A stretch of DNA of 64,000 nucleotides from Arcobacter sp. FWKO B (GTDB lineage Bacteria > Campylobacterota > Campylobacteria > Campylobacterales > Arcobacteraceae): contig NZ_CP041403.1 in NCBI RefSeq assembly GCF_014844135.1, forward strand, positions 682,001-746,000, given 5' to 3'. A program made the translations under genes and the position numbers. This document shows, in pieces, positions 13,283 through 44,873 of the stretch; positions within the stretch are counted from its first letter, which is position 1; each line of letters starts with the position of its first letter. The notes below the pieces were generated by a model. It made no database searches and was not told the DNA's origin. It was given only the letters and a program-made list of their open reading frames with translations.

Positions 13283-13302
13283 TGGTAAAATTTTATTTAC
13301 CA
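13283..13302. promoter_or_regulatory. TGGTAAA-N6-TTTACCA palindrome (copy 1), possible operator
   Basis: Perfect inverted repeat TGGTAAAATTTTATTTACCA, with arms extending to 11 bp (ATATTGGTAAA). It lies 13 bases after the rrf2 stop and about 180 bases before the PhnD-like gene. It could serve as the rrf2 terminator, but the arms and spacing are identical to palindromes at 13450, 24954 and 41333, which favours a protein-binding site. Confidence 0.6.
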
Positions 13303-13354: not shown

Positions 13355-13442
13355 AGAGCATATAGACCTAAGTTTAGGTAGACGCTAATAGAAGCTTTTG
13401 CATCTTATTTTTTGTTCAATCCATAAAAATCACAACTGCTCT
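13355..13442 (+). other. Candidate structured 5' leader of the PhnD-like importer operon
   Basis: AGAGCA (13355-13360) can pair with TGCTCT (13437-13442), closing an 88-nt element with an internal hairpin ACCT/AGGT at 13366-13379. A TACAAT -10-like hexamer at 13342-13347 would start transcripts near the first strand of this helix. No known riboswitch class is recognised. Confidence 0.3.
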
Positions 13443-13449
13443 ATATATG

Positions 13450-13469
13450 GTATAAATATTTTTACCATA
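13450..13469. promoter_or_regulatory. TGGTAAA-N6-TTTACCA palindrome (copy 2), possible operator
   Basis: TGGTATAAATATTTTTACCA matches the 14 conserved positions except one. It ends 15 bases before the start codon of the PhnD-like gene, next to the ribosome binding site AGGAG. The same placement (13 bases before the start) is seen at the fdh-linked polyferredoxin gene. Confidence 0.65.
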
Positions 13470-14360: not shown

Positions 14361-15129
14361 CAATACCGATATAATATTTAAACTTGAAAATGTATCCAAA
14401 AACTTTGGAACTACTAAAGTAATAGACAATATTTCACTCACTATTAATTTGGGTGAAAAGGTTGCAGTTATTGGTCCTTCTGGGGCTGGTAAAACTACTT
14501 TATTTAGGCTAATGTCTGGGATTATACACCCAAATGATGGGAGATTAGAGATATTTGGTATTGATAGTGCTAAGCTAAATAGCAAAAATCTCAAAAAAAT
14601 AAGACGAAATATTGGTGTATTATACCAAAATGACAACCTTATCTCACAACTTCGGGTGGTACATAATGTTCTTATGGGTAAACTTGGGGTTTGGAATATT
14701 TTTAAATCAATATTGTCACTCATTTGGCCTCAAGATATAGCTCTAGCAAAAGAGGCACTCAAAAAAGTAGAACTACAAGACAAACTTTGGGCGATGCCAA
14801 CAGAACTATCAGGTGGACAACAACAAAGAGTAGCCCTTGCAAGGCTTTTGGTACAAGAGCCTAAGGTAATGCTTGCGGATGAGCCTGTAAGTCAGCTTGA
14901 TATAAGACTTGGTAGAGAAATCATAGAAATATTATCAAATATAGCATCAAATCTTAATAATACTCTAATAGTAAATCTTCATACTTTAGAGTTATTACAC
15001 GGACATTTTGATAGGGTAATAGCACTAAAAAACGGTAAGATTTTTTGGGAAGGCAAACCCGAAGAACTAACCCAAGAGATACTTTTTGAACTCTATGGTG
15101 CAGAATATAAAACACTACATTTAGGCTAA
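14350..15129 (+). CDS. PhnC-like ABC transporter ATPase
   Basis: ATP-binding subunit of the importer. Walker A is GPSGAGKTT, the signature is LSGGQQQRVALARLL, and Walker B is VMLADEPVS. Length 259 aa is typical of PhnC. The TTG start overlaps the end of the PhnD-like gene by 11 bases and is supported by AGGAG at 14339-14343, 6 bases upstream. The next gene starts one base after the stop, so the three genes form one tightly coupled operon. Confidence 0.88.
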   Translation: MVNNNTDIIFKLENVSKNFGTTKVIDNISLTINLGEKVAVIGPSGAGKTTLFRLMSGIIHPNDGRLEIFGIDSAKLNSKNLKKIRRNIGVLYQNDNLISQLRVVHNVLMGKLGVWNIFKSILSLIWPQDIALAKEALKKVELQDKLWAMPTELSGGQQQRVALARLLVQEPKVMLADEPVSQLDIRLGREIIEILSNIASNLNNTLIVNLHTLELLHGHFDRVIALKNGKIFWEGKPEELTQEILFELYGAEYKTLHLG

Positions 15130-21164: not shown

Positions 21165-23000
21165 CTACTTTACCAAAAACCTCTGGTTATCTAGCTTTTT
21201 AATATCTGGTAGGGTATCAAGATAATCAAGCAAAGAGATAAGGTATTTACGGCTTACATTTAGGTGAGTTTTAAAGTTATGAATATCTATATATCCATCT
21301 TGTTTGATGATATTTTTCATCAACTCTTTTGCTTTTATAAGGTTTTCTGTTGTGATAAAATAATTATGGGCAAGTCTTTTTATTTTTTGATTGTGTGTTA
21401 GGTTTTTAAAAGCTTTATCACCATTTTTTCTATCAAGGTCTAGCATATCATATATGTTGTATGGTGCTTCAGGGGTGAGGTATGCTTCGTGTAAGGTTTG
21501 ATATATTTTATTTTCTATGAAGTTTGATATATTTTCTATTTTTATATCTTTTTGCATATATAAACCGTTTTCAAATACTAAGAAGTTTTTGGCTACCATA
21601 TTATTGAGTACAAAATCAGCTAAATAAACACTAGCCCACTTAAATCTATCGTGGATTAGGTGTGCTGATATTAGTGCGTATGGATTTTTTTTGTAGATAT
21701 TTAAAATAATATTTTCCAAATAGTCTACAATCTTATATTCATATACAACAAGTGCTGTTTTGTCCACAAAAAGCTCTTGTTCATCACTTAACATCTCTAT
21801 ACTTTCATCATGACTTAGCCCAAATCTTTGAACAGAGCTTATTAGTCCAAACCCTTTTTTGTGGATTTTGCTTAAAAACATAAAAGACTCTAAATATTTT
21901 TTCTCACTCAAAAGCTCTAAAAGTTCTAATTTTTGCGCTTTTTTCATAGGATCTGCGATAGGATTTAGGACTTTCCCTCCACCTATGGTACTTGAGCCAT
22001 TTCGCAAGACAAACCTATCTCCATACATTGCAAATATTGAGCTTGTGGATGAAATGGTGGCATATCTTTTGTTTGTTTTTTTGTTAAGTTCTAGTTCCAA
22101 TACTTTGACATTACATCTACTTGACCCTATAAAAAACTGGTATATATTATCGTGTAGTACCATATTATTATCTAAAAGTTCTATTTCCACATCAATAGAC
22201 TTAAAGCCTCTCATATAGCCTTTTTTGATAATTTGTTGCCCTCTTTGAAGGGTTGATACATCTATATTTGCAAGATTTAGAGCTACTCTTGTACCAAGTG
22301 TTGCTGAGTCATTTTGGCTGTGTTGTGTTTGGATTGCTCTTATTTCTATATCTTTATCTATATCACAAATATAAAGTTTGTCTTTTTTGGTGACTTCACC
22401 ACCCAAAACTGTACCTGTTACAACAGTACCAGAACCTTTGATAGTAAATGCTCTATCTATAAAATACCTAAAAAACTTGTAATCTTTTTTGTAACTTTTA
22501 TTTAATCCAAACAAAATATTTGCAAGATTTTTGATTGAATTTTCATCATATATACTTACTGCTAAAATATCTATTATTTGTATATTATTCTCTTCTAAAA
22601 AGCTCTTTACTTCATTTGATTTGTCCAATCTCTCTTCATCTGTAATCAAATCAGCTTTTGTAATGACTGCTAGGATATTTGTAATACCCAAAAGTTTACA
22701 AATTTGAAGATGTTCAACTGTTTGTGGCTTGATACCCTCAACCGCTGATACTACTAGCATAGAAGCATCAAGACTAAAAGCCCCTGCAATCATATTTTTT
22801 ATCAAATCCTCATGCCCTGGAACATCTACAAATGTTATGGATTTATTTTCACCTTTTAGATGTGAAAATGATATATCAAGGGTCATTCCCCTTTGCTTTT
22901 CTTGGGCAGTACTATCCCCATCAAATCCACTAAGAGCTTTTACTAAAGATGTTTTACCGTGGTCAATATGTCCGATTGTTCCTATTATTAAATTTGTCAT
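21165..23000 (-). CDS. selB: Selenocysteine-specific elongation factor SelB
   Basis: GTPase that carries selenocysteyl-tRNA to UGA codons followed by a SECIS hairpin. The G1 motif GHIDHGKTS, G2/G3 region MTLDISFSH and DVPGHEDLIKNMIAG, and G4 TKADLI are present in the first 150 residues. EF-Tu-like barrels follow, then C-terminal winged helices that bind SECIS RNA (GYIDIHNFKTHLNVSRKYLISLLDYLD). Length 611 aa is normal. It is the last gene of selA-yedF-selB, starting two bases after the YedF-like stop. Confidence 0.95.
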   Translation of the reverse strand: MTNLIIGTIGHIDHGKTSLVKALSGFDGDSTAQEKQRGMTLDISFSHLKGENKSITFVDVPGHEDLIKNMIAGAFSLDASMLVVSAVEGIKPQTVEHLQICKLLGITNILAVITKADLITDEERLDKSNEVKSFLEENNIQIIDILAVSIYDENSIKNLANILFGLNKSYKKDYKFFRYFIDRAFTIKGSGTVVTGTVLGGEVTKKDKLYICDIDKDIEIRAIQTQHSQNDSATLGTRVALNLANIDVSTLQRGQQIIKKGYMRGFKSIDVEIELLDNNMVLHDNIYQFFIGSSRCNVKVLELELNKKTNKRYATISSTSSIFAMYGDRFVLRNGSSTIGGGKVLNPIADPMKKAQKLELLELLSEKKYLESFMFLSKIHKKGFGLISSVQRFGLSHDESIEMLSDEQELFVDKTALVVYEYKIVDYLENIILNIYKKNPYALISAHLIHDRFKWASVYLADFVLNNMVAKNFLVFENGLYMQKDIKIENISNFIENKIYQTLHEAYLTPEAPYNIYDMLDLDRKNGDKAFKNLTHNQKIKRLAHNYFITTENLIKAKELMKNIIKQDGYIDIHNFKTHLNVSRKYLISLLDYLDTLPDIKKLDNQRFLVK

Positions 23001-23001
23001 T

Positions 23002-23601
23002 TTATCCCAGTGTAATAGTTAGTTTGGAGTCCAATAGCCCTTGAAGCGTATCAAGAGCATTACCTACTTCACCTACTTGCAGTTTATCGCTTAGGTTGTA
23101 GTGTTCTAAACATAGTCCACAACTATATATTTTCACACCTTCGTTTATCAATATTTTTAAAGCATCTATTAGCTCATGGTCATCTTGTGATGTAGTTAGT
23201 TTTACCGCTGAATTAACAAAAAATATATTTTTTGGAAGCGGTGATACTTTTGGCAAGGTTTTAATAAATCCCATTGAGAGTTTTTTGCCTAACACTTCAT
23301 CTTTACCGATAGTATCAGATGTGAAGATTATCGTTTTTTTGTCCGTTTGGATTTGGCAATTTACCTCTTCATTTGGTGCTAAATCTTTGCTTGAAGAAGA
23401 TTTGATACTAAAATAAAATCCATCATCTTTTTCTTCCAAAGAAAACTCCGCTTCCATTTTTGATAAAAACCTACTAATATTCTCTTTTGAGTTGTTTGAA
23501 CCGCAAACTACGATAAAATCTTCTTTTTCACAATTAAGTGCATTTTTTGTTATAAGTACAGGTTGTGGACATGATAACCCTCTAGCATCATAAGTTTTCA
23601 T
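23002..23601 (-). CDS. yedF: YedF/FdhU-like selenium metabolism protein (SirA/TusA domain plus DsrE-like domain)
   Basis: The N-terminal ~70 residues are a TusA/SirA fold with the catalytic CPQP motif (DARGLSCPQPVLITKNAL). The C-terminal part resembles DsrE/DsrF (LMGFIKTLPK-type region, IYSCGLCLEHYNL). Such proteins accompany SelD/SelA and are thought to handle reactive selenium; in C. jejuni the SirA-like FdhU and YedE-like FdhT are needed for selenium-dependent formate dehydrogenase. It overlaps the selA stop (ATGA). No YedE-type transporter is visible in this window. Confidence 0.85.
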   Translation of the reverse strand: MKTYDARGLSCPQPVLITKNALNCEKEDFIVVCGSNNSKENISRFLSKMEAEFSLEEKDDGFYFSIKSSSSKDLAPNEEVNCQIQTDKKTIIFTSDTIGKDEVLGKKLSMGFIKTLPKVSPLPKNIFFVNSAVKLTTSQDDHELIDALKILINEGVKIYSCGLCLEHYNLSDKLQVGEVGNALDTLQGLLDSKLTITLG

Positions 23602-24932
23602 TTATACCCCTTTATCACTTCTTTAATAGTTTCAAATTCATCATCAAAAATAGTTCTAACATCTAAGATAACGCACTCATTTTCAATCCTAGCTATGATA
23701 CTGTTTGCTCTTAAATACTTCTCTAAGTTTGTGATGTTTTTTACTTTTAGACTAATCCCATAAGATATTATTTGTTCGTTTGGCATAGAACCTCCACCTG
23801 CGAAAGTTGTAGTTTGTAGCACACTACTTTGGATAAACGATGAGACTAAACTATGTAGTTTTTGGGCTTTTTCTTTTAGATTATTTGGCTCTTCATTTAA
23901 CATTTTGTATGTAAAAATATCATTATGCTCACCAAATAGATATTTTTTCAAGCTCTCTTCTACTATAGCTATAGTTAGCTTATCTGCTCTAAGCATCCTT
24001 AAAAGTTGGTTTTGTTTGAGGCTAGACATAAGCTCTTTTTTGGCTAAGATTATACCGCCTTGGATAGAGCCTATAAGTTTATCCGTACTAAAACTTATGA
24101 TATCAAGCCCCTTTTTACAAAGCTCTTGGATGGTATTTTCATCTTTTGAAAAGTTCAATTTTTGCAATATTCCGCTTCCCAAATCATAATAACTCACTAG
24201 CCCTTTTTCTTTGCCTAGTGTCACAATCTCATCCAAACTAGCCTCCTCGGTAAATCCTACTATAGAAAAGTTTGATTGGTGTACTTTCATCAAAATAGCA
24301 CTTTGGTCTGTGATAGCTTTTTCGTAGTCACTTATTCTTGTTTTATTGGTAGTCCCTACTTCACATAAAAGGGCACTTGAATTTGACATAACCTCAGGTA
24401 TTCTAAATCCTCCGCCAATTTCTACAAGTTCAGCTCTACTTACTATGGTTTGTTTGTTTTTAGAAAAAGTATTAAGTATCAAAAATACGGCTGCAGCGTT
24501 GTTATTGACTAGTAAAACCTCATAATCTTCAAACAAATACGGTGAAAATTTGTTTAGATGGTGGTATCTATCTCCCCTTTTGCCTTGAGTCATATCGTAT
24601 TCAAGATTGGAGTATCTAGTAGCTATTTTTTTGACATTATCGTATATATCATCGCTTATAGGGCTTCTTCCCAGATTGGTGTGTACCGTAATTCCCGTAG
24701 CGTTTATGACATGTTTTAAAGAGCTAAGTTTTAGAGAATCAAACTCTTTTAAAATAGCGTTTATTATATCTTGCAGTTCAAAAACTTTTATTTCCCCTGC
24801 AATTATCTTATCACGAAACCTTGAAATCTGGCTTTGGATAATCTGCTTTGCCAAATGTGATGGTAGATGAGCTAAATACTCGTTATTTAAAAGTTTATCA
24901 ACTTGTGGTATTTGTCTTAATAATTCATTCAT
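23598..24932 (-). CDS. selA: L-seryl-tRNA(Sec) selenium transferase SelA
   Basis: PLP enzyme converting Ser-tRNA(Sec) to Sec-tRNA(Sec) with selenophosphate. Signatures are INATGITVHTNLGRSPIS, EVGTTNKTRISDYEKAI and the PLP lysine Lys285 in FSTDKLIGSIQGGI. Length 444 aa is standard. The start codon is 47 bases from the oppositely oriented tRNA-Sec gene, with a copy of the TGGTAAA-N6-TTTACCA palindrome in between. Confidence 0.95.
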   Translation of the reverse strand: MNELLRQIPQVDKLLNNEYLAHLPSHLAKQIIQSQISRFRDKIIAGEIKVFELQDIINAILKEFDSLKLSSLKHVINATGITVHTNLGRSPISDDIYDNVKKIATRYSNLEYDMTQGKRGDRYHHLNKFSPYLFEDYEVLLVNNNAAAVFLILNTFSKNKQTIVSRAELVEIGGGFRIPEVMSNSSALLCEVGTTNKTRISDYEKAITDQSAILMKVHQSNFSIVGFTEEASLDEIVTLGKEKGLVSYYDLGSGILQKLNFSKDENTIQELCKKGLDIISFSTDKLIGSIQGGIILAKKELMSSLKQNQLLRMLRADKLTIAIVEESLKKYLFGEHNDIFTYKMLNEEPNNLKEKAQKLHSLVSSFIQSSVLQTTTFAGGGSMPNEQIISYGISLKVKNITNLEKYLRANSIIARIENECVILDVRTIFDDEFETIKEVIKGYK

Positions 24933-24953: not shown

Positions 24954-24973
24954 TGGTTAAAATTTCTTTACCA
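24954..24973. promoter_or_regulatory. TGGTAAA-N6-TTTACCA palindrome (copy 3), possible operator
   Basis: TGGTTAAAATTTCTTTACCA has 13 of the 14 conserved positions at the same spacing as copies 1, 2 and 4. It lies in the 46-base gap between the selA start and the tRNA-Sec gene on the other strand, where it could affect both. Confidence 0.5.
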
Positions 24974-24978
24974 ATTTG

Positions 24979-25078
24979 TGGAGAGTATGTGTTTCTGGTG
25001 GGCACCACGGGCTTCAACCCCGATGTTCGGTATAGTGCTATATCCGATGGTAGGTTCGATTCCTTCACTCTCTCGCCA
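24979..25078 (+). tRNA. selC: tRNA-Sec (UCA)
   Basis: Long tRNA with an anticodon stem-loop CGGG-CTTCAAC-CCCG carrying TCA, a long variable arm (TTCGGTATA...TATATCCGA), T-loop TTCGATT and genomic CCA. The acceptor can form the 8-bp helix typical of bacterial tRNA-Sec, but with a T-C mismatch at the first pair and a G-T at the second, so the exact 5' end is uncertain. It lies between selD and selA on the opposite strand from both. Confidence 0.9.
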
Positions 25079-26116
25079 CTAAAAAACATAAATCCCTTTT
25101 TCTTTTTTGGATACAACTTCACCTATTATTGAAGCTTCATAACCACTTTGTATAAGCTCATCTAAGCAATCTTTACTTTTGTTTTTATCCACTGCTATCA
25201 AAAGTCCACCTGATGTTTGTGCATCAAAAAGTAGTATCTTTAAATCTTCACTTAATCCATCTTTTATATCTACTTTTTCATATAAAAAATCTCTATTTCT
25301 ATAAGTTCCCTCTGGAATAATACCCATACTAGCAAGCTCCAAAGCCTCTTCAAAAACATATATTGCACTAGAATCTATCTCAAAACTAATATGTGGATTT
25401 AACATCTCGCTCAAATGCCCCAAAAACCCAAATCCTGTCACATCAGTCATAGCACTTGCTTGATATTTGAGTGCTAGAAGTGAACCTTTTTGATTTAGCA
25501 TTGCCATAGTGTGTGTTGCTTTTTGTATGCCTATGGCTGATAACAAATCTGCTTTTATGGCAGTAGTCATGACACCAATACCAAGAGGCTTAGTCAAAAT
25601 CAAAACATCCCCTACTTTGCTTGTGTTGTTTCTTTTTATATCTTTTGGATGGGCAGTTCCTAGTACACTAAGACCATATTTCATCTGGGTATCTTCTATG
25701 GTATGCCCACCTATCAATAAGCCTCCACACTCTTGGATTTTTGATAGTCCACCTTTTAAGATTTCATTCATAACATCTTTTGAAAAATGGCAACTATCAA
25801 ACATCACAAGATTTAGGGCAGTATTTACCCTTGCACCCATTGCAAATATATCACTAAGCGAATTTGCAGCTGCTATTTGACCATATAAATAAGGGTCATC
25901 CACCACAGGTGTGATAAAATCAGCTGTTTGAACTGTGGCTAAATCTTCATTTATAAGATATACCCCACCATCATCGCTTGTATCAAATCCAACTAGTAAA
26001 TTTTTGTCAAAACTTTGCGTCATTCCGCTAAAGATATGTTGTAAGTCACACGGACCCAATTTTGCAGCTCAACCAGCAGCTTTGACAAATTCTGTAAGTT
26101 TAGGGTATTTATTCAT
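25079..26116 (-). CDS. selD: Selenophosphate synthase SelD, itself a selenoprotein (Sec16)
   Basis: Makes monoselenophosphate from selenide and ATP. The true ATG is at 26116 and the frame contains an in-frame TGA at 26069-26071 (codon 16) in the motif KAAG-Sec-AAKLGP, where SelD proteins have Cys or Sec in the catalytic loop. The rest shows LLVGFDTSDDGGVYLI, ADFITPVVDDPYLYGQIAA and GGLLIGGHTIED. Total 345 aa. A caller that treats TGA as stop would start late, at a TTG before GPCDLQ, and lose the active site. Its 3' end lies next to the oppositely oriented tRNA-Sec. Confidence 0.95.
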
Positions 26117-26420: not shown

Positions 26421-26440
26421 AAGTAAATTTATTTTTACCA
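26421..26440. promoter_or_regulatory. Weak copy of the TGGTAAA-N6-TTTACCA palindrome
   Basis: AAGTAAATTTATTTTTACCA keeps 12 of 14 positions. It overlaps the expected -35 region of the 63-residue gene next to selD, 17 bp upstream of TATAAT on the minus strand. Confidence 0.35.
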
Positions 26441-28173: not shown

Positions 28174-28269
28174 TAATAACCTTAAGTTTTAAATCTGCTG
28201 ATTTTGCATATTACTAAGTTGAATTATCATATTTTTTTGATTAATCTTTCCTTAAATGGTAAAAAAATA

Positions 28270-28298
28270 TTGACTTATTTGCCTTAAGATGATATTAT
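28270..28298 (+). promoter_or_regulatory. Promoter of tupA
   Basis: TTGACT (28270-28275) and TATTAT (28293-28298) are 17 bp apart, about 50 bases before the tupA start. A palindrome lies just downstream of the -10. Confidence 0.65.
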
Positions 28299-32920: not shown

Positions 32921-33307
32921 CTAGTGCTTCCTTCCGCTGTGACTTCTAGTCCTAAAACATCCCAACTGACAATATACCACTTCTATATCAGAGTTTTTGA
33001 CTGTACTACCGACCATCTTGAGACTACTTTTTTTTGCTTCATCCCATAAAGTTTTGCATTCTATTTGTTTTGATTCATTTGCTTTTTTGATTATTTGGCT
33101 GTAAATCTCTTCATCTTTATCCAAAAATTCCAAATTACCAAAAACTCCAAGTTCGCAATCAGTTACTCTAATACCTAATTCTTTTGTAATTGCACCTATT
33201 TCACAAGTGCTAACTCCTAGCTTTGAAGCAACAGCAAACCCCTTTATACAAGGTAGTTTGCCGTTTTCATCCAAATATTTGGAAATTATCTCAATCTCTT
33301 TGGACAT
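32921..33307 (-). CDS. Conserved fdh-locus protein of unknown function (Cys-rich, HTH-like repeat)
   Basis: 128 residues from an ATG that overlaps the fdhD stop, suggesting coupling; a longer open frame to 33334 is less likely. Two similar helical units are visible: GFAVASKLGVSTCEIGAITK and, after it, ELGIRVTDCELGVFGN; near the end VVYCQLGCFRTR repeats the CELG/CQLG pattern. Six cysteines could bind metal or a cluster. I do not recognise the family and assign no function. The position beside FdhD implies a link to formate dehydrogenase. Confidence 0.7.
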   Translation of the reverse strand: MSKEIEIISKYLDENGKLPCIKGFAVASKLGVSTCEIGAITKELGIRVTDCELGVFGNLEFLDKDEEIYSQIIKKANESKQIECKTLWDEAKKSSLKMVGSTVKNSDIEVVYCQLGCFRTRSHSGRKH

Positions 33308-34088
33308 CAATTCTTCCGCTATGAGTATAAACATTCATTTTTCTACCCCTTGCAAACCCAATCAATGTAAGTCCATGAATATGTGCAGTTTGAACACCAA
33401 GATAAGTTGGAGCTGTTCTTGATACTATTATTGGGATTTTATGCATTACCGCTTTTACAACCATTTCTGAACTTAATCTTCCACTTACAAAAAGGATTGA
33501 TTTTGTTGTATCATGACCTTGTAATTTACATTTTCCCACTACTTTGTCTATAGCATTGTGGCGACCTATATCTTCAGAAGTTACGGTTGTTCCATCAAGC
33601 AAATAAATCATTGCTTTATGAACACATCCTGTTAGTTTGTATAGTTCACTCTCTTCATAAAATTTTGCAACTTCACTAGAGATTGTATGAGGTGTGACTT
33701 TAAAAGCTGTTTGATTAAATGGTATTTTTACATCTCCAGCTATATTTGCAGTCACTCCCCCTCCACATCCACTTACTAGTGTTTTTTCTTTGTAAAGATT
33801 TTCTAATGAGCCTTCATCAATAACTGCCTTGACATCAACTCTTAGTCCATCTTCACTTAATACAAGCTCTTCAATATCATCAATACTTGATATGACATTC
33901 TCACTCATCAAAAACCCTATGGCATGAGCTTCTTGATCTATTGGAATACACATCATTGATATTGCTTTTTCTCCATTGAGATAGACATTTAGTCTTGCTT
34001 CTTCAATGGTTACATCATCTATTTCTTTGGCGTTATTATCTATAAGCTTATCTATTACTACGGTTTTTAAATATCTCGTTTTGTCCAT
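33291..34088 (-). CDS. fdhD: Formate dehydrogenase accessory sulfurtransferase FdhD
   Basis: Carries sulfur from a cysteine desulfurase to the molybdenum/tungsten cofactor of FdhA. The cysteine loop appears as TLVSGCGGGVTANI, and the family core as EDIGRHNAIDKVVGKCKL, FVSGRLSSEMVVKAV and SRTAPTYLGVQTA. Length 265 aa is normal. A palindrome shared with the tupA promoter lies 14 bases upstream. The next gene upstream, fdhC, is separated by a heptamer-repeat hairpin, so fdhD probably has its own promoter. Confidence 0.93.
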   Translation of the reverse strand: MDKTRYLKTVVIDKLIDNNAKEIDDVTIEEARLNVYLNGEKAISMMCIPIDQEAHAIGFLMSENVISSIDDIEELVLSEDGLRVDVKAVIDEGSLENLYKEKTLVSGCGGGVTANIAGDVKIPFNQTAFKVTPHTISSEVAKFYEESELYKLTGCVHKAMIYLLDGTTVTSEDIGRHNAIDKVVGKCKLQGHDTTKSILFVSGRLSSEMVVKAVMHKIPIIVSRTAPTYLGVQTAHIHGLTLIGFARGRKMNVYTHSGRIDVQRD

Positions 34089-34215: not shown

Positions 34216-35167
34216 TTTTCATTTCCTCTAAAACATCTGGTCTTAATTGTTCTAAATACTCTTTTGGTAATTTACCACTCCAAACACCAGGGATATATCC
34301 TTTTACCGATACAAAATATGAATATACCGTCTCAAATGTGAAAAATGAGATAATAGCACTACCCATAAAGTGCATAAATAAAGTAAACCTTTTGAGCTGA
34401 ATTGTCTCAGCGTGAGTCAAAGCTTCTGGATGCATAAACCATAACACAAATCCACTCACACATAAGATAAATCCAAACGCAACATACATATAATAGTTGA
34501 TTCTATTCATAGGCTCATACTTGCCTTTTAAAAATACACTATTCCACCATTTGACACTAGGTCTGACGAAAAATTTGTGGTCTTTAAAAGCGATAACTGT
34601 CATAATAAGCCATACTGGAATCCAACCAACTCCAACTATTTCATGCGTTGCTCTCATAAGTCTTGGTATATATCCACCACCTGTTACATTTCCAAATGTT
34701 ATTGAAAATCCAGTGATAAATAGATAAATCATCACTACGATATTAAGTAAAATTACTACCCTTTGAAATACAGAATAAACTTGCACCAAATCATTAGGAT
34801 TTGTTACTTTTGCTTGTTTTCTACCCTTTGCTATGATAAACATAGTAAGGAATAATAAAAACTCAACAAAAAATACTATTGGCAAAAGATGTTGTCTTTC
34901 TTCAAAGGCTCTTATTACCTCTGGTGCCATAGATTCATATTCTGGTCCAAAAGGTCCAACTTTACTTTGTTCATAATGACTTAAAGTTTCAAAAGGTACT
35001 ATTTGACCAGTAAAATTGCCTTGCAACATTTGTAATATAAACTGATATACATAGTTTATGTCTGCAATTGTCGCCAACCAAAAATACCAATATGTTAGTA
35101 GTACAAATAAAAAGCCTATTATCAAATATGCTTTATATTCACTTATGAAACTTGTTTTATTTTCCAT
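34211..35167 (-). CDS. fdhC: Formate dehydrogenase cytochrome b subunit (gamma)
   Basis: Membrane anchor passing electrons from FdhB to menaquinone. Several transmembrane helices are visible, with histidine candidates for haem b in TRLMRATHEIVGVG-type sequence and FMHFMGSAIISFFTFETVYS. An extra N-terminal helix (LIIGFLFVLLTYWYFWLA) precedes the cytochrome b561-like core. The start at MENKTSFISEYKA (318 aa) overlaps the fdhB stop by 11 bases; an ATG six codons earlier is possible. Confidence 0.9.
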   Translation of the reverse strand: MENKTSFISEYKAYLIIGFLFVLLTYWYFWLATIADINYVYQFILQMLQGNFTGQIVPFETLSHYEQSKVGPFGPEYESMAPEVIRAFEERQHLLPIVFFVEFLLFLTMFIIAKGRKQAKVTNPNDLVQVYSVFQRVVILLNIVVMIYLFITGFSITFGNVTGGGYIPRLMRATHEIVGVGWIPVWLIMTVIAFKDHKFFVRPSVKWWNSVFLKGKYEPMNRINYYMYVAFGFILCVSGFVLWFMHPEALTHAETIQLKRFTLFMHFMGSAIISFFTFETVYSYFVSVKGYIPGVWSGKLPKEYLEQLRPDVLEEMKK

Positions 35168-35765
35168 ATGCGTTTGTCCATCCATAAGGTGCAGATTGTA
35201 CTCCTTTTCCTTGTGCTACAAATCTTTGTCTAAAAATATTTGATACTTCTTGGCTATCTCCAACTAAAAGTGCTTTAGTTGAACACATAGCTGCACACAT
35301 AGGAACTTTACCTTCTGCAATTCTGTTTTGTCCATAAAGATGTCTTTCTTTTTCAGAATTTGTCTCTTCAGGACCACCAGCACACATTGTACATTTATCC
35401 ATTACACCTTTTGTACCAAATGCACCATCTTTTGGAAACTGTGGAGCACCAAAAGGGCAAGCGTATAGACAATAAGCACAACCTATACATTTGTTTTTAT
35501 CATGTAATACTATACCATCTTCTCTAATATAGAAACAATCAACTGGACAAACTTGTTGGCAAGGTGCATCTGTACAATGCATACAAGCAACAGATAAAGA
35601 GAACTCTAATCCCTCTATACCTTCGTTGATTGATACAACTTTTCTTCTACTGACACTTACTGGAAGCTCATGAGCCTCAGCACAAGCAATAGAACAGCCA
35701 TCGCAATGAATACATCTTTTTTCATCGCAGTAAAATTTCATTCTAGCTACTTCTAAACTACCCAT
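35157..35765 (-). CDS. fdhB: Formate dehydrogenase iron-sulfur subunit (beta)
   Basis: Electron-transfer subunit with four [4Fe-4S] sites: CIHCDGCSIAC, CMHCTDAPCQQVCPVDC, CIGCAYCLYACPFGAP and CTMCAGG with CAAMCSTKAL. The 202 residues match the Campylobacter FdhB, as does the start MGSLEVARMKFYCDE. It lies 9 bases after fdhA and overlaps fdhC. Confidence 0.95.
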   Translation of the reverse strand: MGSLEVARMKFYCDEKRCIHCDGCSIACAEAHELPVSVSRRKVVSINEGIEGLEFSLSVACMHCTDAPCQQVCPVDCFYIREDGIVLHDKNKCIGCAYCLYACPFGAPQFPKDGAFGTKGVMDKCTMCAGGPEETNSEKERHLYGQNRIAEGKVPMCAAMCSTKALLVGDSQEVSNIFRQRFVAQGKGVQSAPYGWTNAYGK

Positions 35766-35774
35766 CTTCGACTC

Positions 35775-38597
35775 CTAAGCTTTACTAATCGCACATAATC
35801 CACCTTTTGTTTCAGGGATTTGTGTAACGATATCATAACCGTAATTTGTAACAGTATTTGCACTTTCACCTGTTGCATAAGGTTTAGTACCTTCAGGATA
35901 TTTATGACCTAAATCTGTACCTTGAAATACACCAGCAAAATGGAAAGGTATAAAAATTCTATCAGATGCAACTGAATGTGAAAATTTAGCTTTTACCTTG
36001 ATTTTAGTACCTTGAGGAGAATGTATCCACATCATAGCACCATTTCTTATACCATATTCTCCAGCTAAATCTGGATTAATATCACAAAACATCTCTGGGG
36101 TTAATTTTGCAAGATATTTTGATGCTCTGTTTTCAATACCAGCACCATTCATATTTACAAGTCTTCCCGTTACAAGATTGATTGGGAAATCTTTTGCCCA
36201 GTCTTGTTTTGTTTGTTCACTTACATATCTAGTATCAACCCTAAAATGGTTTTTCTTATCAGCAAAACTTGGGAATTGTTGTACTAAATCTGTTCTTGGC
36301 GAATGTAATGGTTCTCTATGAAGAGGTATCTCATCTGCCCAACCCCATACAATAGCTCTAGCTTTTGCATTTCCATAAGGAGCAATTCCAGCTTCCATAC
36401 ATTTTTGTGCAATAAGGTTAGATTTATCAACTTTCCAATTTGCACCCATTTGTGCTTTTTCTTCTTCTGTAAGCTTGATTTTTAAGACTTCTTCAATATT
36501 ATCTTTTGTAATCTCAGGATATCCACTATTTTGAACTCCACCTCTTGGTGCAGAATTATTTTCAGAAAGTAGTGTAACACCATTTCTTTCCATCCCAAAA
36601 TTGTTTCTAAAGCCCATTCCACCTAGTCTTACAGGTTTACTTGTATCATAAAGATTTGGACTTCCACAATGTGTCGTAGTCCAGCAAGGCCAAGGTAAAC
36701 CATAATACTCACCACTCATCTCACCATATCCAGCCAAACTTACCTCATCAAACATATGCCAATTGTCAGTATGTTTTTTAATTCTTTCGCTTGTCCAACC
36801 AGTCAAACCAATAGTTTTTATAACTCTTGCTATTTCATTTGTCGCATCTTCTGGCCAAGTAAAATTTGTCCCCTTACCCATTCCAGCAGTTAACTGTTCA
36901 AAAAAGCCAAGTCTTTTTGCAAGTTCAAACATTATCTCATGATCTGGTTTTGATTCATACATAGGCTCGATAACTTTATATCTCCATTGTGCACTTCTAT
37001 TTGTTGCAGTAACACTACCACTTGTTTCAAATTGAGTAGCTGCAGGAAGTATATATACATTATCCATTTTATCAGTCAAAATAGCAGCTTCATTTACAAA
37101 TGGGTCTGCAAGAACTAATAATTCAAGATTATCAAGTCCTTCTTTAACTTTTGCTGTTTGTGCAGTTGATGTGATACCATTTCCAAATACTAAAAGAGCT
37201 TTCAGCCTTGTACCAGCATTATCAATAGCATCTTCACCAGGATTTCCACCTAAAACTCCAGCCCACCAACGAGCAAGTGTAAAGCCTTGTTTACCCATCC
37301 ACTCTGGTGATTTGAATCTTCCTTGTAACCAATCAAAATCAACTCCCCATTGTGATGCAAAATATTTCCAAGAACCTTCTGCTAGTCCATAATACCCTGG
37401 TAATGAGTCAGATAAACAACCCATATCAGTAGCACCTTGAACATTATCGTGTCCTCTTAAGATATTTGTTCCACCACCAGCAACTCCGATATTTCCAAGA
37501 GCTAGTTGTACAATTGGAGCAAGTCTAGTATTTGATGTTCCTATAGTGTGCTGAGTAAGTCCCATACACCATATCAAAGTTCCAGGTTTGCTTGAAGCAT
37601 ACAGTTTTGTAATTTGGATTAATTGCTCCGCTTTAATTCCTGTAACATCTTCTACCTTCTCAGGAGTCCATTGTTTAGATTCTTCAATTATTTGATCCAT
37701 TCCATAAACTCTACTAGCTATGAAGTTTTTATCATGCCAGTTGTTTTTGAAAATAAGATGCAACATACCATACATAAATGGTATATCAGTACCTGGTCTA
37801 ATAGGTGCATAAATATCTGCTTTTGCAGCAGTTTTTGTAAATCTAGGGTCTATTACTATAATTTTAGCATTGTTTCTTTCTTTAGCTTTTAGAAAATGTT
37901 GGAAACCTACTGGGTGATTTACCGCAGGGTTTGAACCAAAAATTATAATTGCTTTAGAATTTTGAATATCTCCCAAAGAATTTGTCATAGCTCCATAACC
38001 AAAAGTATTCGCCACACCGGCGACTGTTGAGCTGTGTCAGATTCTTGCTTGATGATCTATATTATTTGTACCAAACATTGCTGCAAATTTTCTGAAATAA
38101 TAAGCTTGTTCATTGCTTATTTTTGCAGAACCTAAAAATTGCACAGCATCTGGTCCATCTTTTTGTCTTAGTTCATCAAGTTTTTTTGAAATTCCATCTA
38201 ATGCTTCATTCCAAGAAATTCTTTTCCATTGTCCATTTTGTTTTACCATTGGGTATTTAAGTCTTACTTCAGATCTAACCATATCGATCATATCTGCACC
38301 TTTACAACAATGCCCACCAAGACTCACTGGGTGATCTTGTGCAACTTCTTGTCTTACCCAAACACCATTTTGTACTTCAGCAATAACTCCACATCCAACA
38401 GAGCATGCTGTACATATTGTTTTAACTTCTTTTGACCCTGGAAAAGGATTTTTAATCTCTTCCGCAGTCGCTTCTCTAGTAACACCTGTACTAGCTAAGC
38501 TAGAAGTAACTCCAAACGCACCTGCTAAAGCAGTCATTTTAAGAAATGACCTTCTTCCAACCTTTGCATTTAGAGTCTCATATGCATTTACTGACAT
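35775..38597 (-). CDS. fdhA: Formate dehydrogenase catalytic subunit, selenocysteine-containing (Sec187)
   Basis: Periplasmic tungsten/molybdenum bis-MGD enzyme oxidising formate to CO2. The frame is continuous if the TGA at 38037-38039 (codon 187) is read as selenocysteine: HQARI-Sec-HSSTVAGVANTFGYG is the FDH active-site motif. A Tat signal (GRRSFLKMTALAGAFGV) and a [4Fe-4S] site (Cys62, 65, 69, 97) come first. Total 940 aa, close to C. jejuni FdhA. A hairpin follows the UGA. Without recoding it would be mis-called as two genes of 186 and 746 residues. Operon: polyferredoxin, TorD-like, small Tat protein, fdhA, fdhB, fdhC. Confidence 0.97.
38009..38036 (-). promoter_or_regulatory. SECIS element of fdhA
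   Basis: Just after the UGA, the mRNA forms TCGCC-GGTGT-GGCGA (38023 to 38009), a GC-rich stem with a GGUGU loop starting 13 bases after the stop codon. Spacing and a GGU-type loop resemble the E. coli fdhF SECIS bound by SelB. It holds one of only two CCGG sites I found in the window. Confidence 0.75.
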
Positions 38598-38905: not shown

Positions 38906-39646
38906 TTAAACCCCACAACTCCCATCGCTACATGATTGTTTTGGACCTAGAGCTTTCAAAGCTTTATTTCTTTCTCTTCTTGCTCTTTCTTCATCACTAA
39001 GATTATCTTTTGGTTTTAAATCTTCTTTTGGTTTTGGCTTAGAAACTTCAAGATATAACCTCTCAAACTCAATAAATGAGTGTAATATAACCATTAAGTT
39101 TTTGTATATATCTGCTTTTTCATGCTCATAAACACTTTTTGCAAACTCATCTATAAATTCATTTAAAATCTGAGCAAAAATACAATGGATTGTATTGTCA
39201 TACTCTTTTTGTCCATTATTTGAAAGCTCTATAAGTTCAGCCATAAAACCTAGTATAAAACCTATACTATCTTCATATTCATGGTATTTCTTTTCATCTC
39301 TTCTTAAGGCAGTTTTTGCGATAAATTCAAGCATTTGAACCCTTTTTTTACCACTTTCTACTTGCTCATCATAAAACGATGCTGTTGTTCTTATATTTTT
39401 TGTTTGTGGATTATGAAACAATTCATCATACTCGTGCATCAAAGCTTGATTTGATGTAAGGTCAAGCTTACTCAATATATTACTCACAGCTTTTAAACTA
39501 TCATCATCAAGTGGTGCTTTCTTTATAGTTTCAAGCAAATTTAACAAATTAAAATATTGTGAATTATCACCTAAAAAAACAAAAAAGTTCGCAAATAGGT
39601 TATAATAAATTGCCCTAGCTTTATTTAATTCCATATTATTTTTCAT
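38906..39646 (-). CDS. TorD/DmsD-like molecular chaperone for formate dehydrogenase
   Basis: 246-residue, mostly helical cytoplasmic protein with the TorD-family core LMHEYDELFHNPQTKNIRTT and a central helical bundle. These chaperones bind Tat signal peptides and help cofactor loading. The C-terminus adds a charged linker and KQSCSDGSCGV, two cysteines not typical of TorD, possibly metal- or selenium-linked. It overlaps the polyferredoxin gene (ATGA), and the small Tat protein and fdhA follow it. Confidence 0.85.
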   Translation of the reverse strand: MKNNMELNKARAIYYNLFANFFVFLGDNSQYFNLLNLLETIKKAPLDDDSLKAVSNILSKLDLTSNQALMHEYDELFHNPQTKNIRTTASFYDEQVESGKKRVQMLEFIAKTALRRDEKKYHEYEDSIGFILGFMAELIELSNNGQKEYDNTIHCIFAQILNEFIDEFAKSVYEHEKADIYKNLMVILHSFIEFERLYLEVSKPKPKEDLKPKDNLSDEERARRERNKALKALGPKQSCSDGSCGV

Positions 39647-41319
39647 ATATTACCTGCTTTCATTTGATTTACATAATCTTTCATCATAACTTTTGGTTTG
39701 CATTGCTCACAACAATAAAGTGTTCTTTCTTTTATCGGATCAGCAAATATTGGTATCATTTTTGATGCAACCTTTTCGATAGCCTTTACAGTAGCAAACT
39801 CTTTGCCACACTCGACACATGCAAAAAGTTTATCTTTCGCTAAAACTTCTGATTTAAACCAACTAGGATTTAGCTTGATAACATCTTTTTCAATACTCAA
39901 ACACTCTTTTTCAGGACAAGACAACTCACAATATCCACAAGCTGTACAAACAGAAGGATTAAGTTTTAATTCATTTGTTTTAGAATCAGCCCAAAGTGCA
40001 TTTACATTACATGCTCCAACACAACTTAGGCATAAAGTACATTTGGCTTCATCAACACGAACATGTGCATAATGGATATGTTCTCCAGTCAGAACAACAC
40101 CTAAATCATCAGATTTTACGATATTTTCAAGTCTTGTTGCAAAAATCTCTCTTTTTTTCATACCAGCTTGATTGATATTGAAATAACTATCATCAATAAC
40201 AGATACTTCCTCTAATGCTCTTTTTAACTCATCTAAATCTTTTGCTACTATAATGGCATCTTTTCCATATCTTTTTTGATAAATATCATTTAAGATTCTG
40301 ATACTATCTCCACTACCTTTTGATATAAAATCCGTATAAAAAATCACTTGTGAGCCACTTAATTGTAAAAGAGTCAAAAAAGAGCTTTCATGCAAGAACT
40401 TCTCACCATCTATCATAAATGGCAAAACTCCCTCTTTTAAATCTAGTTTTATATTTTGAATATCCATCTTCGCTGGTATAATTAATGGTATATGATTTTT
40501 GTACATTAAACTTATTTCATATAAAGCATCCCTATTTGTAGATGTGTAATCCAAAGCACCACTTGGACAAACCGAAATACACCCACCACATCCATGACAA
40601 TCTATTTGAGAAAAAACCAGATGTTTATTTGTCTCATCTTTTACTATAGCTACAGTTGGGCAAACTTCAACACATTTACCACAAATATCTCCTCTTCTTT
40701 CGTGATATTGACAAATATTTTTATCATAAGTTGTAAATTTTTTATATTCATATTCACTTATATTTTTTCTTACAATTTCTAAGCACTCTTTTTGACCTAA
40801 AATATTTGGGTCTAAAGTACCACTTTGTTTAGTAGCTACCTCTTTTGCATCAAAATATATTATTTGATCAACTTGAAGTTTTACAATAATATCTTTTGAA
40901 TTTACACTCACTTCTAAATTGCCAATATGTCCTGTGATATTTTCTAACATATCTTCACTAATTTGATACAAATCAAACTCATCTGCAAGTATATAATGCT
41001 TTATTGAGTTACAACTAGCTACATCACCTATTAAAAGAAGTTTATTACCAACCTCTTGAGTATATGAAACATCTTGTGCATAATCAAATTTAATAGAGGC
41101 TATATCATATAGTTTTTTTATATTTTGAATTTTTGAAGAAAAATTATCTTTAGTGTTCGATATATAAAAGTCAATCTCTTTTAAAACCACTTCACTTTTT
41201 ATTTTATCTGTATTAGAGAACAAAAAAGTTTCACTATCTTGTAATGATGTAGTTACTAAAATAGACTCATCAATAGGAAAATCTAACCCTTTTGGATTGT
41301 AGTATACATACTCTTGCAT
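39643..41319 (-). CDS. Polyferredoxin (four [4Fe-4S] motifs) of the formate dehydrogenase operon
   Basis: 558 residues, cytoplasmic by lack of a signal. Ferredoxin pairs are at CGKCVEVCPTVAI / CHGCGGCISVCPSGA (about 211-255) and CTLCLSCVGACNVNA / CTACGYCELSCPEKEC (about 428-475). A further CVECGKEF ... CCEQCKPK near the end could bind zinc or iron. The N-terminal ~180 residues are not recognised. The same gene heads the C. jejuni fdh region. It may feed or accept electrons during FdhA assembly. Its start codon is 13 bases from the 20-bp palindrome at 41333. Confidence 0.85.
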   Translation of the reverse strand: MQEYVYYNPKGLDFPIDESILVTTSLQDSETFLFSNTDKIKSEVVLKEIDFYISNTKDNFSSKIQNIKKLYDIASIKFDYAQDVSYTQEVGNKLLLIGDVASCNSIKHYILADEFDLYQISEDMLENITGHIGNLEVSVNSKDIIVKLQVDQIIYFDAKEVATKQSGTLDPNILGQKECLEIVRKNISEYEYKKFTTYDKNICQYHERRGDICGKCVEVCPTVAIVKDETNKHLVFSQIDCHGCGGCISVCPSGALDYTSTNRDALYEISLMYKNHIPLIIPAKMDIQNIKLDLKEGVLPFMIDGEKFLHESSFLTLLQLSGSQVIFYTDFISKGSGDSIRILNDIYQKRYGKDAIIVAKDLDELKRALEEVSVIDDSYFNINQAGMKKREIFATRLENIVKSDDLGVVLTGEHIHYAHVRVDEAKCTLCLSCVGACNVNALWADSKTNELKLNPSVCTACGYCELSCPEKECLSIEKDVIKLNPSWFKSEVLAKDKLFACVECGKEFATVKAIEKVASKMIPIFADPIKERTLYCCEQCKPKVMMKDYVNQMKAGNI

Positions 41320-41332
41320 AACCTATGCCTTT

Positions 41333-41352
41333 TGGTAAAAATATTTTTACCA
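41333..41352. promoter_or_regulatory. TGGTAAA-N6-TTTACCA palindrome (copy 4), possible operator of the fdh operon
   Basis: TGGTAAAAATATTTTTACCA is a perfect 20-bp palindrome in the divergent region between the fdh operon and the three-gene sensor system. A weaker copy ends at 41404. Confidence 0.7.
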
Positions 41353-41384: not shown

Positions 41385-41404
41385 AAGTTAAAAAAATTTT
41401 ACCA
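41385..41404. promoter_or_regulatory. Weak second copy of the palindrome
   Basis: AAGTTAAAAAAATTTTACCA keeps 11 of 14 conserved positions, 52 bases from the perfect copy, in the same divergent promoter region. Confidence 0.25.
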
Positions 41405-41462: not shown

Positions 41463-42596
41463 TTGATAAAAAGTTTTTATATAAATTTGATTTTATTATT
41501 AAGTATTTTTTCTACTATACAAGCCAAAGAAGAGTTGGTTTTTGGTACTTCTCTTCCTATGAATGGTATTATGCAAGAATGGGGAGATGGTGTTATTAGT
41601 GGAGCAAATTCATATTTTTACTATACAAATGATAATAATATACTTCAACAATATCGTATCAAACTGATTGCATATGATGACAAATATGAACCTGATTCTA
41701 CATATTTAAACACCAAAAAACTAATAACCCAAGATAAGGTTTTTGGACTATTTGGTTTTGTTGGAACCCCAACAGTAAAAAATATTTTATCTATTATCAA
41801 CGATAATAACACACCTTTTATTGCCCCTTTTACAGGTGCTATGTTTTTAAGAGACAATCATAATCCTGATATTATCAACCTAAGAACAAACTACTATAAA
41901 GAGATTAAATCAATCGTAAACTATCTTCATAACATAAAACACATCGATGAATTTTCTGTTTTTTACCAAAATGATGATTATGGTCATGAGGGGTACACTT
42001 CTTTACTTAAAATCCTTAAATTACAAGATTTAAAGCTTATTTCAGAAGGTACATATAAGCGGAATACTCTTTCTATCAATCATGCTATAAATGAAATAAA
42101 AGAATCAAAACCAAAAGCTATTATTATGATTGGTGCACATAAAGCAAATTCAACTTTTATAAAAAAAGCAAGACTAGATGAAAACTTCAAAAATACAATA
42201 TTTGCAATAGTATCATTTGGTGATGCAGATGCAATGATAAAAGATTTGGATTATGAAAGTGAAAATCTAATATTTTCACAAATAGTCCCTAGCTATAATG
42301 ATACTACTATACCTATAGTCAAACAATACAGAAAGATTTATTCTAATTACTATCCAAATAAAGAATATAGTTTTATCTCATTAGAGGCTTTTATAGGTGC
42401 AAAAATTGTGGTTGATTCAATGAGAGAAATATCTGGTAAAATAACTCAAAAAAAGTTTATTCAAAATATTAAGCAATATAAAAATAGTGAAGAAGGGATA
42501 ATCATAGAATACAAAAACAAACAATTACTCAATAAAGTATATTTATTTGAATATACTAATTTTAATTTTAAAGAAATCATATATGATAATCAATAA
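41463..42596 (+). CDS. Periplasmic ligand-binding protein (Peripla_BP_6 / LivJ-like), sensor component
   Basis: Signal peptide (MIKSFYINLILLLSIFSTIQA) then a type I periplasmic-binding fold: FGTSLPMNGIMQEWGDGVI, LITQDKVFGLFGFVGTPTV, FSVFYQNDDYGHEGYTSLL. Length 377 aa. A TTG start is used; AAAGG is 9 bases upstream and a signal peptide follows directly. No ABC transporter genes accompany it; instead it overlaps a histidine kinase, so it probably presents a ligand to the kinase. The ligand is unknown; formate or a related acid is suggested only by the neighbouring fdh operon. Confidence 0.85.
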   Translation: MIKSFYINLILLLSIFSTIQAKEELVFGTSLPMNGIMQEWGDGVISGANSYFYYTNDNNILQQYRIKLIAYDDKYEPDSTYLNTKKLITQDKVFGLFGFVGTPTVKNILSIINDNNTPFIAPFTGAMFLRDNHNPDIINLRTNYYKEIKSIVNYLHNIKHIDEFSVFYQNDDYGHEGYTSLLKILKLQDLKLISEGTYKRNTLSINHAINEIKESKPKAIIMIGAHKANSTFIKKARLDENFKNTIFAIVSFGDADAMIKDLDYESENLIFSQIVPSYNDTTIPIVKQYRKIYSNYYPNKEYSFISLEAFIGAKIVVDSMREISGKITQKKFIQNIKQYKNSEEGIIIEYKNKQLLNKVYLFEYTNFNFKEIIYDNQ

Positions 42597-44124
42597 TCTA
42601 CTAAAAGTATTTGATAAACTCCCTTTTGCAAATAAAACAAACTTTTTAATTTTTATTATAACAGGTGGGATGCTTTGTATTATAATACTTTCTCAGATTT
42701 CAACATATGCTATAAAAAGCGATTTTGAAAGACTTTTTGAAAACAGAACAAAACCACTGGTAGATTTGGAAAATCTAAAAGATACTTGTGAAATAAATAT
42801 CAAAGATACTATCATAGATATATCAAAAGGTGAAATACCACTTGAAGATGGATTAGAAGTTCTTAACCTTGCTCAAGGTCTAATAAAAAACTACTGGAAA
42901 AGTTATAAAGATGCAAAACAAAATCAACATACAAATTTATTTACATCTTTAGTAAAAAAGATTTTTTTACAATCAACTGACAATACCCATAACGAACTCC
43001 TTTTTGAACGACTAATACATAATATAGATACTAAAATAACAAAAATAGACCACTATTTAACAGATTTTGACCCTCAAAAATCAGAGCAGTTAATATTTGA
43101 AGTCAATGCTGTAAAAGTTTATATTACAAGTCTTATTAATTACGATTTAAAAATCATTATTGCAGAAAAAAATGATACTGAAAAGTTATTTGGATTTTTA
43201 TTTTTATTTTCAATAATTTCAATTTTCTTTGTATTTTTATTTTCGATTTTATTATCTATTATTATCTTAAACAATTTTAAAAAACTTCACAAAGTACTTG
43301 AAATAAAAGTTGAGAAAAAAACAAAAGAGTTATTAGAGCTTAATAGTTCCCTAGAACAAAGAATAACAAATGAAGTTAAAAACAGCCGTAAAAAAGATTT
43401 TGTAATGTTCCAACAAGCCAAACTAGCCTCAATGGGTGAAATGCTTCAAAATATAGCCCACCAATGGCGTCAGCCTCTTGGAAGTCTAAGTATGATAATA
43501 CAAAGTTTTCAAACCAAAATGGAACTTGGCAAACTAACACCTGAATTTGTAGATACAAAAGTAAAAGATGCCTTACTTTTGGCTGATAATATGTCTCATA
43601 CATTAGATGATTTTAGAAATTTCTTCAACCCAGAAAAAGCAAAAACAACTTTTAGTATTCAAAAATGTATTGAAAAGTCATTTGAACTTGCAAAATATAT
43701 ACTAGAAAAAGAAAATATAAAACACGAAATTGTCATCAAAAAAGATGTGATTATAACAAGCTACTATAATGAACTCTCACATGTATTTTTAAACCTTATA
43801 AACAATTCTAAAGATGCATTCTTAAATAGATGTACAAAAGAAGAAAAAATCATCAAAGTGCTTGTCAAAGCTTATAAAAATAGGCTTTACATACACTTTA
43901 TAGATAATGGTGGAGGAATACCTGAACATATAATCTCACAGATTTTTGAGCCTTATTTTACAACTAAATACAAAAGTGCAGGGACTGGTATAGGGCTTTA
44001 TATGTCAAAGCAAATCATTGAAACACATATGAAAGGTTCAATTACTTGTAAAAATATCCCAAATACACTAAGTAATTGTCGAGGTTGCAAATCTGCATTA
44101 TTTATCATAGAAATACCAATATAA
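42583..44124 (+). CDS. Membrane sensor histidine kinase
   Basis: Two transmembrane helices (about 20-37 and 200-228 of this start) bracket a helical periplasmic domain. A coiled coil leads to the phosphoacceptor box MLQNIAHQWRQPLGSLSM and the ATPase motifs NLINNSKDAF, FIDNGGGIP and GTGIGLYMSKQII. The start MIINNLLKVFDKLPF (513 aa) overlaps the binding-protein gene by 14 bases. The response regulator follows. The HQWRQPL type is common in Campylobacterota kinases. Confidence 0.88.
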   Translation: MIINNLLKVFDKLPFANKTNFLIFIITGGMLCIIILSQISTYAIKSDFERLFENRTKPLVDLENLKDTCEINIKDTIIDISKGEIPLEDGLEVLNLAQGLIKNYWKSYKDAKQNQHTNLFTSLVKKIFLQSTDNTHNELLFERLIHNIDTKITKIDHYLTDFDPQKSEQLIFEVNAVKVYITSLINYDLKIIIAEKNDTEKLFGFLFLFSIISIFFVFLFSILLSIIILNNFKKLHKVLEIKVEKKTKELLELNSSLEQRITNEVKNSRKKDFVMFQQAKLASMGEMLQNIAHQWRQPLGSLSMIIQSFQTKMELGKLTPEFVDTKVKDALLLADNMSHTLDDFRNFFNPEKAKTTFSIQKCIEKSFELAKYILEKENIKHEIVIKKDVIITSYYNELSHVFLNLINNSKDAFLNRCTKEEKIIKVLVKAYKNRLYIHFIDNGGGIPEHIISQIFEPYFTTKYKSAGTGIGLYMSKQIIETHMKGSITCKNIPNTLSNCRGCKSALFIIEIPI

Positions 44125-44198: not shown

Positions 44199-44873
44199 AT
44201 GGGTAGTATTAGAGATTTAAATATTTTAAAATGGTTTAATATTTTATATATTGAAGATGATGTTGATTTACTTACACATACAAAAGATGTATTAGAGGAT
44301 TTTGTTCACAATATTTACACAGCTACAAATTCAAAAGAAGCATTGCAAATATTACAAACTCATAAAGTTGATGCTATTATATCAGATATTTTACTTGAAC
44401 ATGAAAATGGAATTGAGTTTTTGACTTTTTTAAAAAATGAAAAAAATATTTGCATCCCTACAATACTAACAACCGCTCACACAGATACACAATACCTTCT
44501 TGATGCAATAAAACTAAAAGTAGAAAGCTATATAGTAAAACCTATCAATATAAAAGAACTTCTAAATACTTTACACGATATTTTATTGCCTATTATTCAA
44601 CAAAAAGAAATCAAAAAAACAAACAATATCATTAAAATGATTTCAGTAGTTACAGACAACAAACAAGTAGATGTTATCAAACATATTATAAATAATCTTG
44701 ATGAAAATGAATGTTTTACCGCTTCATATAGTGAGATAATGGATATAATAAATATATCCAAACCTACACTTATAAAGCTATTTAAAGAACTTTTAGAAAA
44801 AGAGATACTTGTAAAAATAAACTATAAAACTTATAAATTCAATGAAATAGCACTTTTGGGGGTTGCGGTATAA
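44199..44873 (+). CDS. Response regulator with atypical winged-helix output domain
   Basis: N-terminal receiver: acidic pair in YIEDDVD, phosphoacceptor Asp63 in IISDILLEHENG, TTAHT and VKPINI. The C-terminal ~85 residues are not OmpR- or NarL-like; they show a small helix-turn-helix (YSEIMDIINISKPTLIKLFKELLEKEILVKI) similar to MarR/Lrp-style wings. Third gene of the sensor trio. It is a candidate for binding the TGGTAAA palindromes; not shown. Confidence 0.85.
   Translation: MGSIRDLNILKWFNILYIEDDVDLLTHTKDVLEDFVHNIYTATNSKEALQILQTHKVDAIISDILLEHENGIEFLTFLKNEKNICIPTILTTAHTDTQYLLDAIKLKVESYIVKPINIKELLNTLHDILLPIIQQKEIKKTNNIIKMISVVTDNKQVDVIKHIINNLDENECFTASYSEIMDIINISKPTLIKLFKELLEKEILVKINYKTYKFNEIALLGVAV

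Follow-up and report, generated by a model that had tools for sequence, protein, structure and literature searches.

In Campylobacter jejuni, the FdhTU proteins (YedE/YedF) take part in selenium-dependent formate dehydrogenase biogenesis (Shaw 2012, via PMC6682613), with neither a shared operator nor a two-component regulator being described. Elsewhere, the selenium-responsive regulator LysR_Se/HrsM was predicted by comparative genomics and verified in Methanococcus (PMC9312934). A 2022 review names LysR_Se as its sole predicted selenium-specific regulator; by its account, a high-affinity transport system for selenium had yet to be identified (PMC9312934). A. butzleri is reported to lack any FNR/CRP-family homologue (PMC6682613). 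Our search of the literature found no selenium or formate regulon of a kind matching the one described below.

We analyzed a window of 64,000 nucleotides (C1:682001-746000 of a 2,243,170-base Arcobacter genome) that contains repeated copies of the palindrome TGGTAAA-N6-TTTACCA. We consider it probable that this palindrome is the operator of an Arcobacteraceae regulon for formate dehydrogenase (fdh) and selenium supply, with the response regulator encoded at 44199 as its likely reader, activating from near -50. The same transporter family appears to feed selenium to formate dehydrogenase as with C. jejuni FdhTU, yedE-yedF being members of the regulon in Arcobacteraceae. Transcriptional control of selenium genes is shared with LysR_Se/HrsM, although the latter is of the LysR type, whereas the Arcobacter candidate is a response regulator and its gene set is centred on fdh.

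TorT/TorS/TorR is a two-component system with an auxiliary periplasmic binding protein, and the Arcobacter locus resembles it in having a binding protein, a kinase and a response regulator beside the putatively controlled respiratory genes. TorR, however, is OmpR-like and recognizes direct repeats; the repeat in the Arcobacter operator is inverted, and 44199 has a RepL/Crp-like winged helix. Operators of the CRP/FNR type, TGTGA-N6-TCACA, have an 11-bp half-site spacing; going by geometry, the half-sites of the best-conserved operator core, GTAAA-N6-TTTAC, are spaced as in the CRP family, with a different sequence. A conserved operator of this kind allows selenium genes to be found via their control signal: it marks PhnCDE-like, YedE/YedF and transglutaminase-MerT-MerP importers and a double-cubane-cluster reductase as candidate selenium genes, and it puts the regulator within reach of tests in culturable Arcobacteraceae.

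An inverted repeat at formate dehydrogenase and selenium genes

Four sites in the window match the palindrome at no fewer than 13 of its 14 arm positions (Table 1). Dinucleotide shuffles put the chance expectation at 0.04 (sd 0.20) per window, and none of 100 shuffles reached four matches. These results bear out the first-pass annotation, which had reported four intergenic sites keeping at least 13 of the 14 arm positions and a chance expectation well below one per 64 kb; three of its strong sites were correctly placed, and the fourth, given as 13450-13469, lies two bases away, at 13448-13467. The weaker copies that it had listed at 26421 and 41385 also exist, with two and three mismatches, respectively. 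When up to three mismatches are allowed, the window holds 19 matches against 9.5 expected, an excess so modest that the statistical weight, by itself, is carried only by the strong sites.

Table 1. Positions of operator sites and associated genes in the window.
Feature	Position	Strand	Remarks
CymR-like Rrf2 protein	12857..13270	+	
Operator site, perfect (0 mismatches)	13283..13302		upstream of PhnDCE-type putative selenium importer; -10-like TAATAT ~30 bp downstream
phnD-like gene leader	13364..13441	+	degenerate GGU hairpin copy 13366-13379, ACCTAAGTTTAGGT
Second importer copy of operator, 1 mismatch	13448..13467		within phnD leader, immediately ahead of ribosome-binding site
Selenium-type PhnD-like binding protein	13485..14360	+	
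PhnC-type ATPase of importer	14350..15129	+	
PhnE-type permease of importer	15131..16996	+	
selB	21165..23000	-	
selA	23598..24932	-	
Operator site, 1 mismatch	24954..24973		between divergent selA and tRNA-Sec; identical in congener G284
tRNA-Sec	24980..25074	+	
selD, itself a selenoprotein gene	25079..26116	-	in-frame UGA 26069-26071
Operator-like site	26421..26440		upstream of 62-aa gene beside selD; score 19.0 of 23.9; identical in G284
Weaker candidate site	28257..28276		intergenic, upstream of tupA; score 15.8; missed by first-pass annotation
fdhD	33291..34088	-	
FDH3 beta subunit	35157..35765	-	
fdhA	35775..38597	-	in-frame UGA 38037-38039; SECIS 37984-38042
First fdh operon gene, ferredoxin-type Fe-S protein	39643..41319	-	
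Operator site 1, perfect (0 mismatches)	41333..41352		14 bp upstream of first fdh gene, directly after its -10-like TTAGAAT
Operator site 2, weak here	41385..41404		52 bp from site 1; ~-50 for fdh and divergent sensor trio alike
Periplasmic binding protein (Peripla_BP_6) of sensor trio	41463..42596	+	
Sensor histidine kinase of trio	42547..44124	+	
Response regulator	44199..44873	+	C-terminal winged helix; best DNA-binding candidate

All four strong sites are intergenic, at the selenium-type PhnCDE importer, at selA/tRNA-Sec and at fdh. A genome-wide scan, set beforehand as a check on the motif, found no match with at most one mismatch beyond these four in the whole genome, and a reversed pattern used as a control in the same scan gave two matches. 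The listed places with two mismatches were ranked by a scoring matrix (maximum 23.9) derived from fdh sites that came almost entirely from relatives; nine of the best-scoring ones located beyond the window were retrieved, and each falls within an open reading frame. The motif connecting fdh, selenium genes and a Phn-type importer is operator-like; being intergenic, specific to these genes in its genome and kept in relatives, it withstood the refuting outcomes that the first-pass annotation had named. The palindrome is almost certainly a conserved operator and, judged from sequence comparison, the regulon first suggested is real and larger than proposed.

The PhnD-like importer named in the first-pass annotation does carry a site, and it looks like a selenium importer: the best family of its binding protein is TIGR04553 (putative selenate ABC transporter binding protein), at 178.6 bits, below the cut-off of 250. 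The fdhA SECIS, which lies right at the UGA as expected, scores 44.8 bits (E 2.1e-9) against RF01989, below the gathering score of 63. Site 26421 lies upstream of a 62-aa gene (MFIQLNDRVYLNLNRITRTKIDHVEDG..., at 26198-26384) that neighbours selD and the tup tungstate genes; this small gene is kept in the congener G284 between selD and the tup genes, with the operator upstream. The tupA promoter looks like a sigma-70 promoter whose -35 TTGACT forms the right arm of the candidate match, and the counterpart of this candidate in G284 has diverged.

Conservation of the operator in relatives

A scan of genome contigs with the response regulator returned a single near relative, the congener G284 (MAG UBA6211), in which the sites at fdh, at selA/tRNA-Sec and at the small gene beside selD are all kept and an additional site lies between the Rrf2 gene and the double-cubane-cluster reductase. 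The same genome has a second binding-protein/kinase system, and the site with one mismatch at its start (L108:3514-3533) may be due to chance.

Across the Arcobacteraceae, 45 of 52 fetched intergenic regions between fdh and the sensor trio contain a site, counted at no more than one mismatch to TRGTAAA-N6-TTTACYA. A second site usually stands 52–56 bp from the first, which is the spacing between 41333 and 41385, so that the weak copy at 41385 represents a conserved position; it is kept in the genomes of family f9 as well. Upstream of yedE/fdhT (NF033796, selenium transporter), a site is present at 130–190 bp in 27 of 30 loci compared with 2 of 90 gene-body windows, and four out of four further loci bring the Arcobacteraceae total to 31/34; the motif occurs at none of 16 yedE genes from other Campylobacterales families. 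The transglutaminase-MerT-MerP trio beside selD has a site upstream in 28 of 29 loci and in none of 58 gene-body windows, and divergent sites common to PhnCDE-like and selD genes are found in several genera. The comparison of the same promoters in relatives that the first-pass annotation had called for thus finds the motif kept at fdh/sensor trio, yedE, the transglutaminase trio, selD and PhnD. At selA, conserved sites that extend across the start codon (relative position -5) were discounted because they overlap coding and ribosome-binding sequence, and conservation at this gene is therefore weak outside the genus.

If the sites were AT-rich promoter sequence or terminator palindromes, instead of operators, their abundance might reflect the AT-richness of the genome, and the palindrome at 13448 would indeed lie within the transcript, where it might form an RNA structure. 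However, alignments of the fdh/sensor-trio and other promoters reveal arm positions conserved while the flanks diverged, the distance to a -10-like hexamer is fixed, the gene-body controls are nearly empty and chance accounts for 0.04 matches per window, which leaves this explanation very improbable.

The operator also leads to genes of less obvious function. Transglutaminase-like, MerT-like and MerP-like proteins are encoded together beside selD (for example, L098:14122-15818, L100:2177-3869 and L291:10419-12116) and are candidate selenium uptake genes. Among 13 close orthologs of the double-cubane-cluster reductase, six carry a site, compared with none of nine distant paralogs; the reductase gene adjoins selenium genes, together with its activase and an operator, at L099:7764-9801 and L297:12168-14251. 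A role of this reductase in selenium processing is possible; the literature yielded nothing useful linking the two.

Promoter geometry and the candidate regulator

The first-pass annotation had described the sites as positioned in the way of repressor sites. At the yedE, PhnD, selD and transglutaminase-trio promoters, however, a -10-like hexamer most often starts 23–31 bp after the site, with 28 the commonest distance at yedE, and the site is therefore centred near -50, an activator position. The arrangement at 13283, with the site followed by a -10-like hexamer, recurs at PhnD of relatives. On the strength of this spacing, we rejected a repressor reading for most promoters. Repressor-like geometry holds for two sites, 41333, just past the fdh -10-like sequence, and 24954, which adjoins TATAAAAT. 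With transcription starts inferred from sequence, activation is on balance the likelier main mode of a 44199-type regulator. The TTTAAG repeats near -35 are taken by us to be the known Campylobacter-type promoter signal and were rejected as an operator.

We think it likely that the response regulator 44199 reads the palindrome. About 70 of 104 Arcobacteraceae have an ortholog at an identity of at least 62%, and in almost every locus read this ortholog adjoins the fdh site, the operator being next to the regulator's own operon. Outside the Arcobacteraceae, the sensor trio stands beside fdh with an intervening site in families f16, f6, f20 and f9, in all of which regulator and sites are found together; family f15, described below, departs from this pattern. 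As its output domain, 44199 has a winged helix close to RepL, HTH_36 and HTH_Crp_2; an AlphaFold model of the protein fell short of a usable confidence (pLDDT 34.7). One genome, G176, has fdh, selA and selD, lacks the sensor trio with its 44199-type regulator and has no sites at those genes; it also has no ortholog of the Rrf2-family protein 12857 and therefore does not separate the two candidates.

Of the two regulators put forward in the first-pass annotation, 44199 fits, being encoded next to the fdh site in several families, genomes without an Rrf2 ortholog among them, whereas 12857 was rejected. The latter would bind the palindrome, repress the regulon and sense selenium or sulfur status; Rrf2 proteins do bind palindromes of similar length, and the gene lies immediately upstream of a site both here and in G284. 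Yet 12857 is CymR-like (90 bits against the CymR equivalog, below the cut-off of 195, and so not CymR by that model), and in relatives its orthologs are flanked by OAH sulfhydrylase and cysK, with no site conserved in the intergenic regions there. In the f9 genomes G009 and G044, which keep fdh sites (matrix score 14.1), no Rrf2 ortholog was detected, the best matches having E-values of 3.9e-6 and 6.1e-5; conversely, f20 genomes have the ortholog, together with the response regulator and fdh sites, and their yedE genes lack sites. The failure to detect it in these f9 genomes and the cysteine-gene context are the reasons for preferring 44199, and an Rrf2 regulator is improbable. Points that weigh against 44199 are the lack of sites at yedE in f20, where the response regulator is present, the repressor-like geometry at 41333 and 24954, and the situation in family f15.

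Some other DNA-binding protein, encoded elsewhere, could read the palindrome, with the linkage of sensor trio and fdh reflecting shared physiology. Linkage is not equal to binding, and family f15 (L390, L391, L393, L395, L398) has the sensor trio, with a response regulator 52–55% identical, and no full palindrome at fdh, the promoters there containing the TTTAC half-site alone, directly ahead of TTTAAGC. Several families nevertheless have the site between fdh and the sensor trio, and the loci read show no further regulator gene recurring beside the sites; we regard this alternative as unlikely.

With 44199 as the reader, the histidine kinase (42547) and the periplasmic binding protein (41463) would lead to phosphorylation of the response regulator, a dimer of which, sitting some 50 bp ahead of the transcription start, would activate selD and fdh, its own operon (from the shared site 41385) and the selenium importers, which are PhnDCE in this genome and YedE or the transglutaminase-MerT-MerP trio in relatives. 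The sites at 41333 and selA/tRNA-Sec overlap inferred transcription starts and would probably damp or switch those promoters. Formate, or another signal of formate respiration, seems a likelier cue than selenium, since the selA-negative genomes G222, G243 and G269 retain the regulator and the fdh sites while their fdhA genes read through without a UGA.

Leader hairpins downstream of the operator

The leaders of yedE, transglutaminase-trio, PhnCDE and some selD mRNAs contain a hairpin of 6 bp whose loop is GGU or GGA, downstream of the operator promoters (examples are L106, L171, L293 and L350). Among 20 distinct copies, all six pairs vary on both sides and 98.3% of cells pair, values that somewhat overstate the covariation since the copies were partly selected for pairing; none of 500 shuffles reached the covariation score, and sliding the partners abolishes it. 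RNAalifold recovered from the leader alignment the hairpin only and not the outer helices, and no Rfam family matches the importer leader at gathering score.

The selAB genes of E. coli are controlled through a SelB-bound, SECIS-like leader, and the fdhA SECIS of the Arcobacter genome has GGU in its apical loop as well. A tentative reading, which we think has somewhat less than an even chance of being right, is a two-layer selenium control for formate respiration, in which activation by the two-component system through the palindrome would be combined with tuning of the importers by the GGU-loop leader RNA, which might be a SECIS mimic bound by SelB or a riboswitch that responds to selenium. 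If so, the transglutaminase-MerT-MerP trio and the double-cubane reductase would be new genes of selenium uptake or processing.

Three genomes (loci L176, L177, L180) contain a yedE/fdhT gene with an in-frame TGA, perhaps a selenoprotein form of the transporter.
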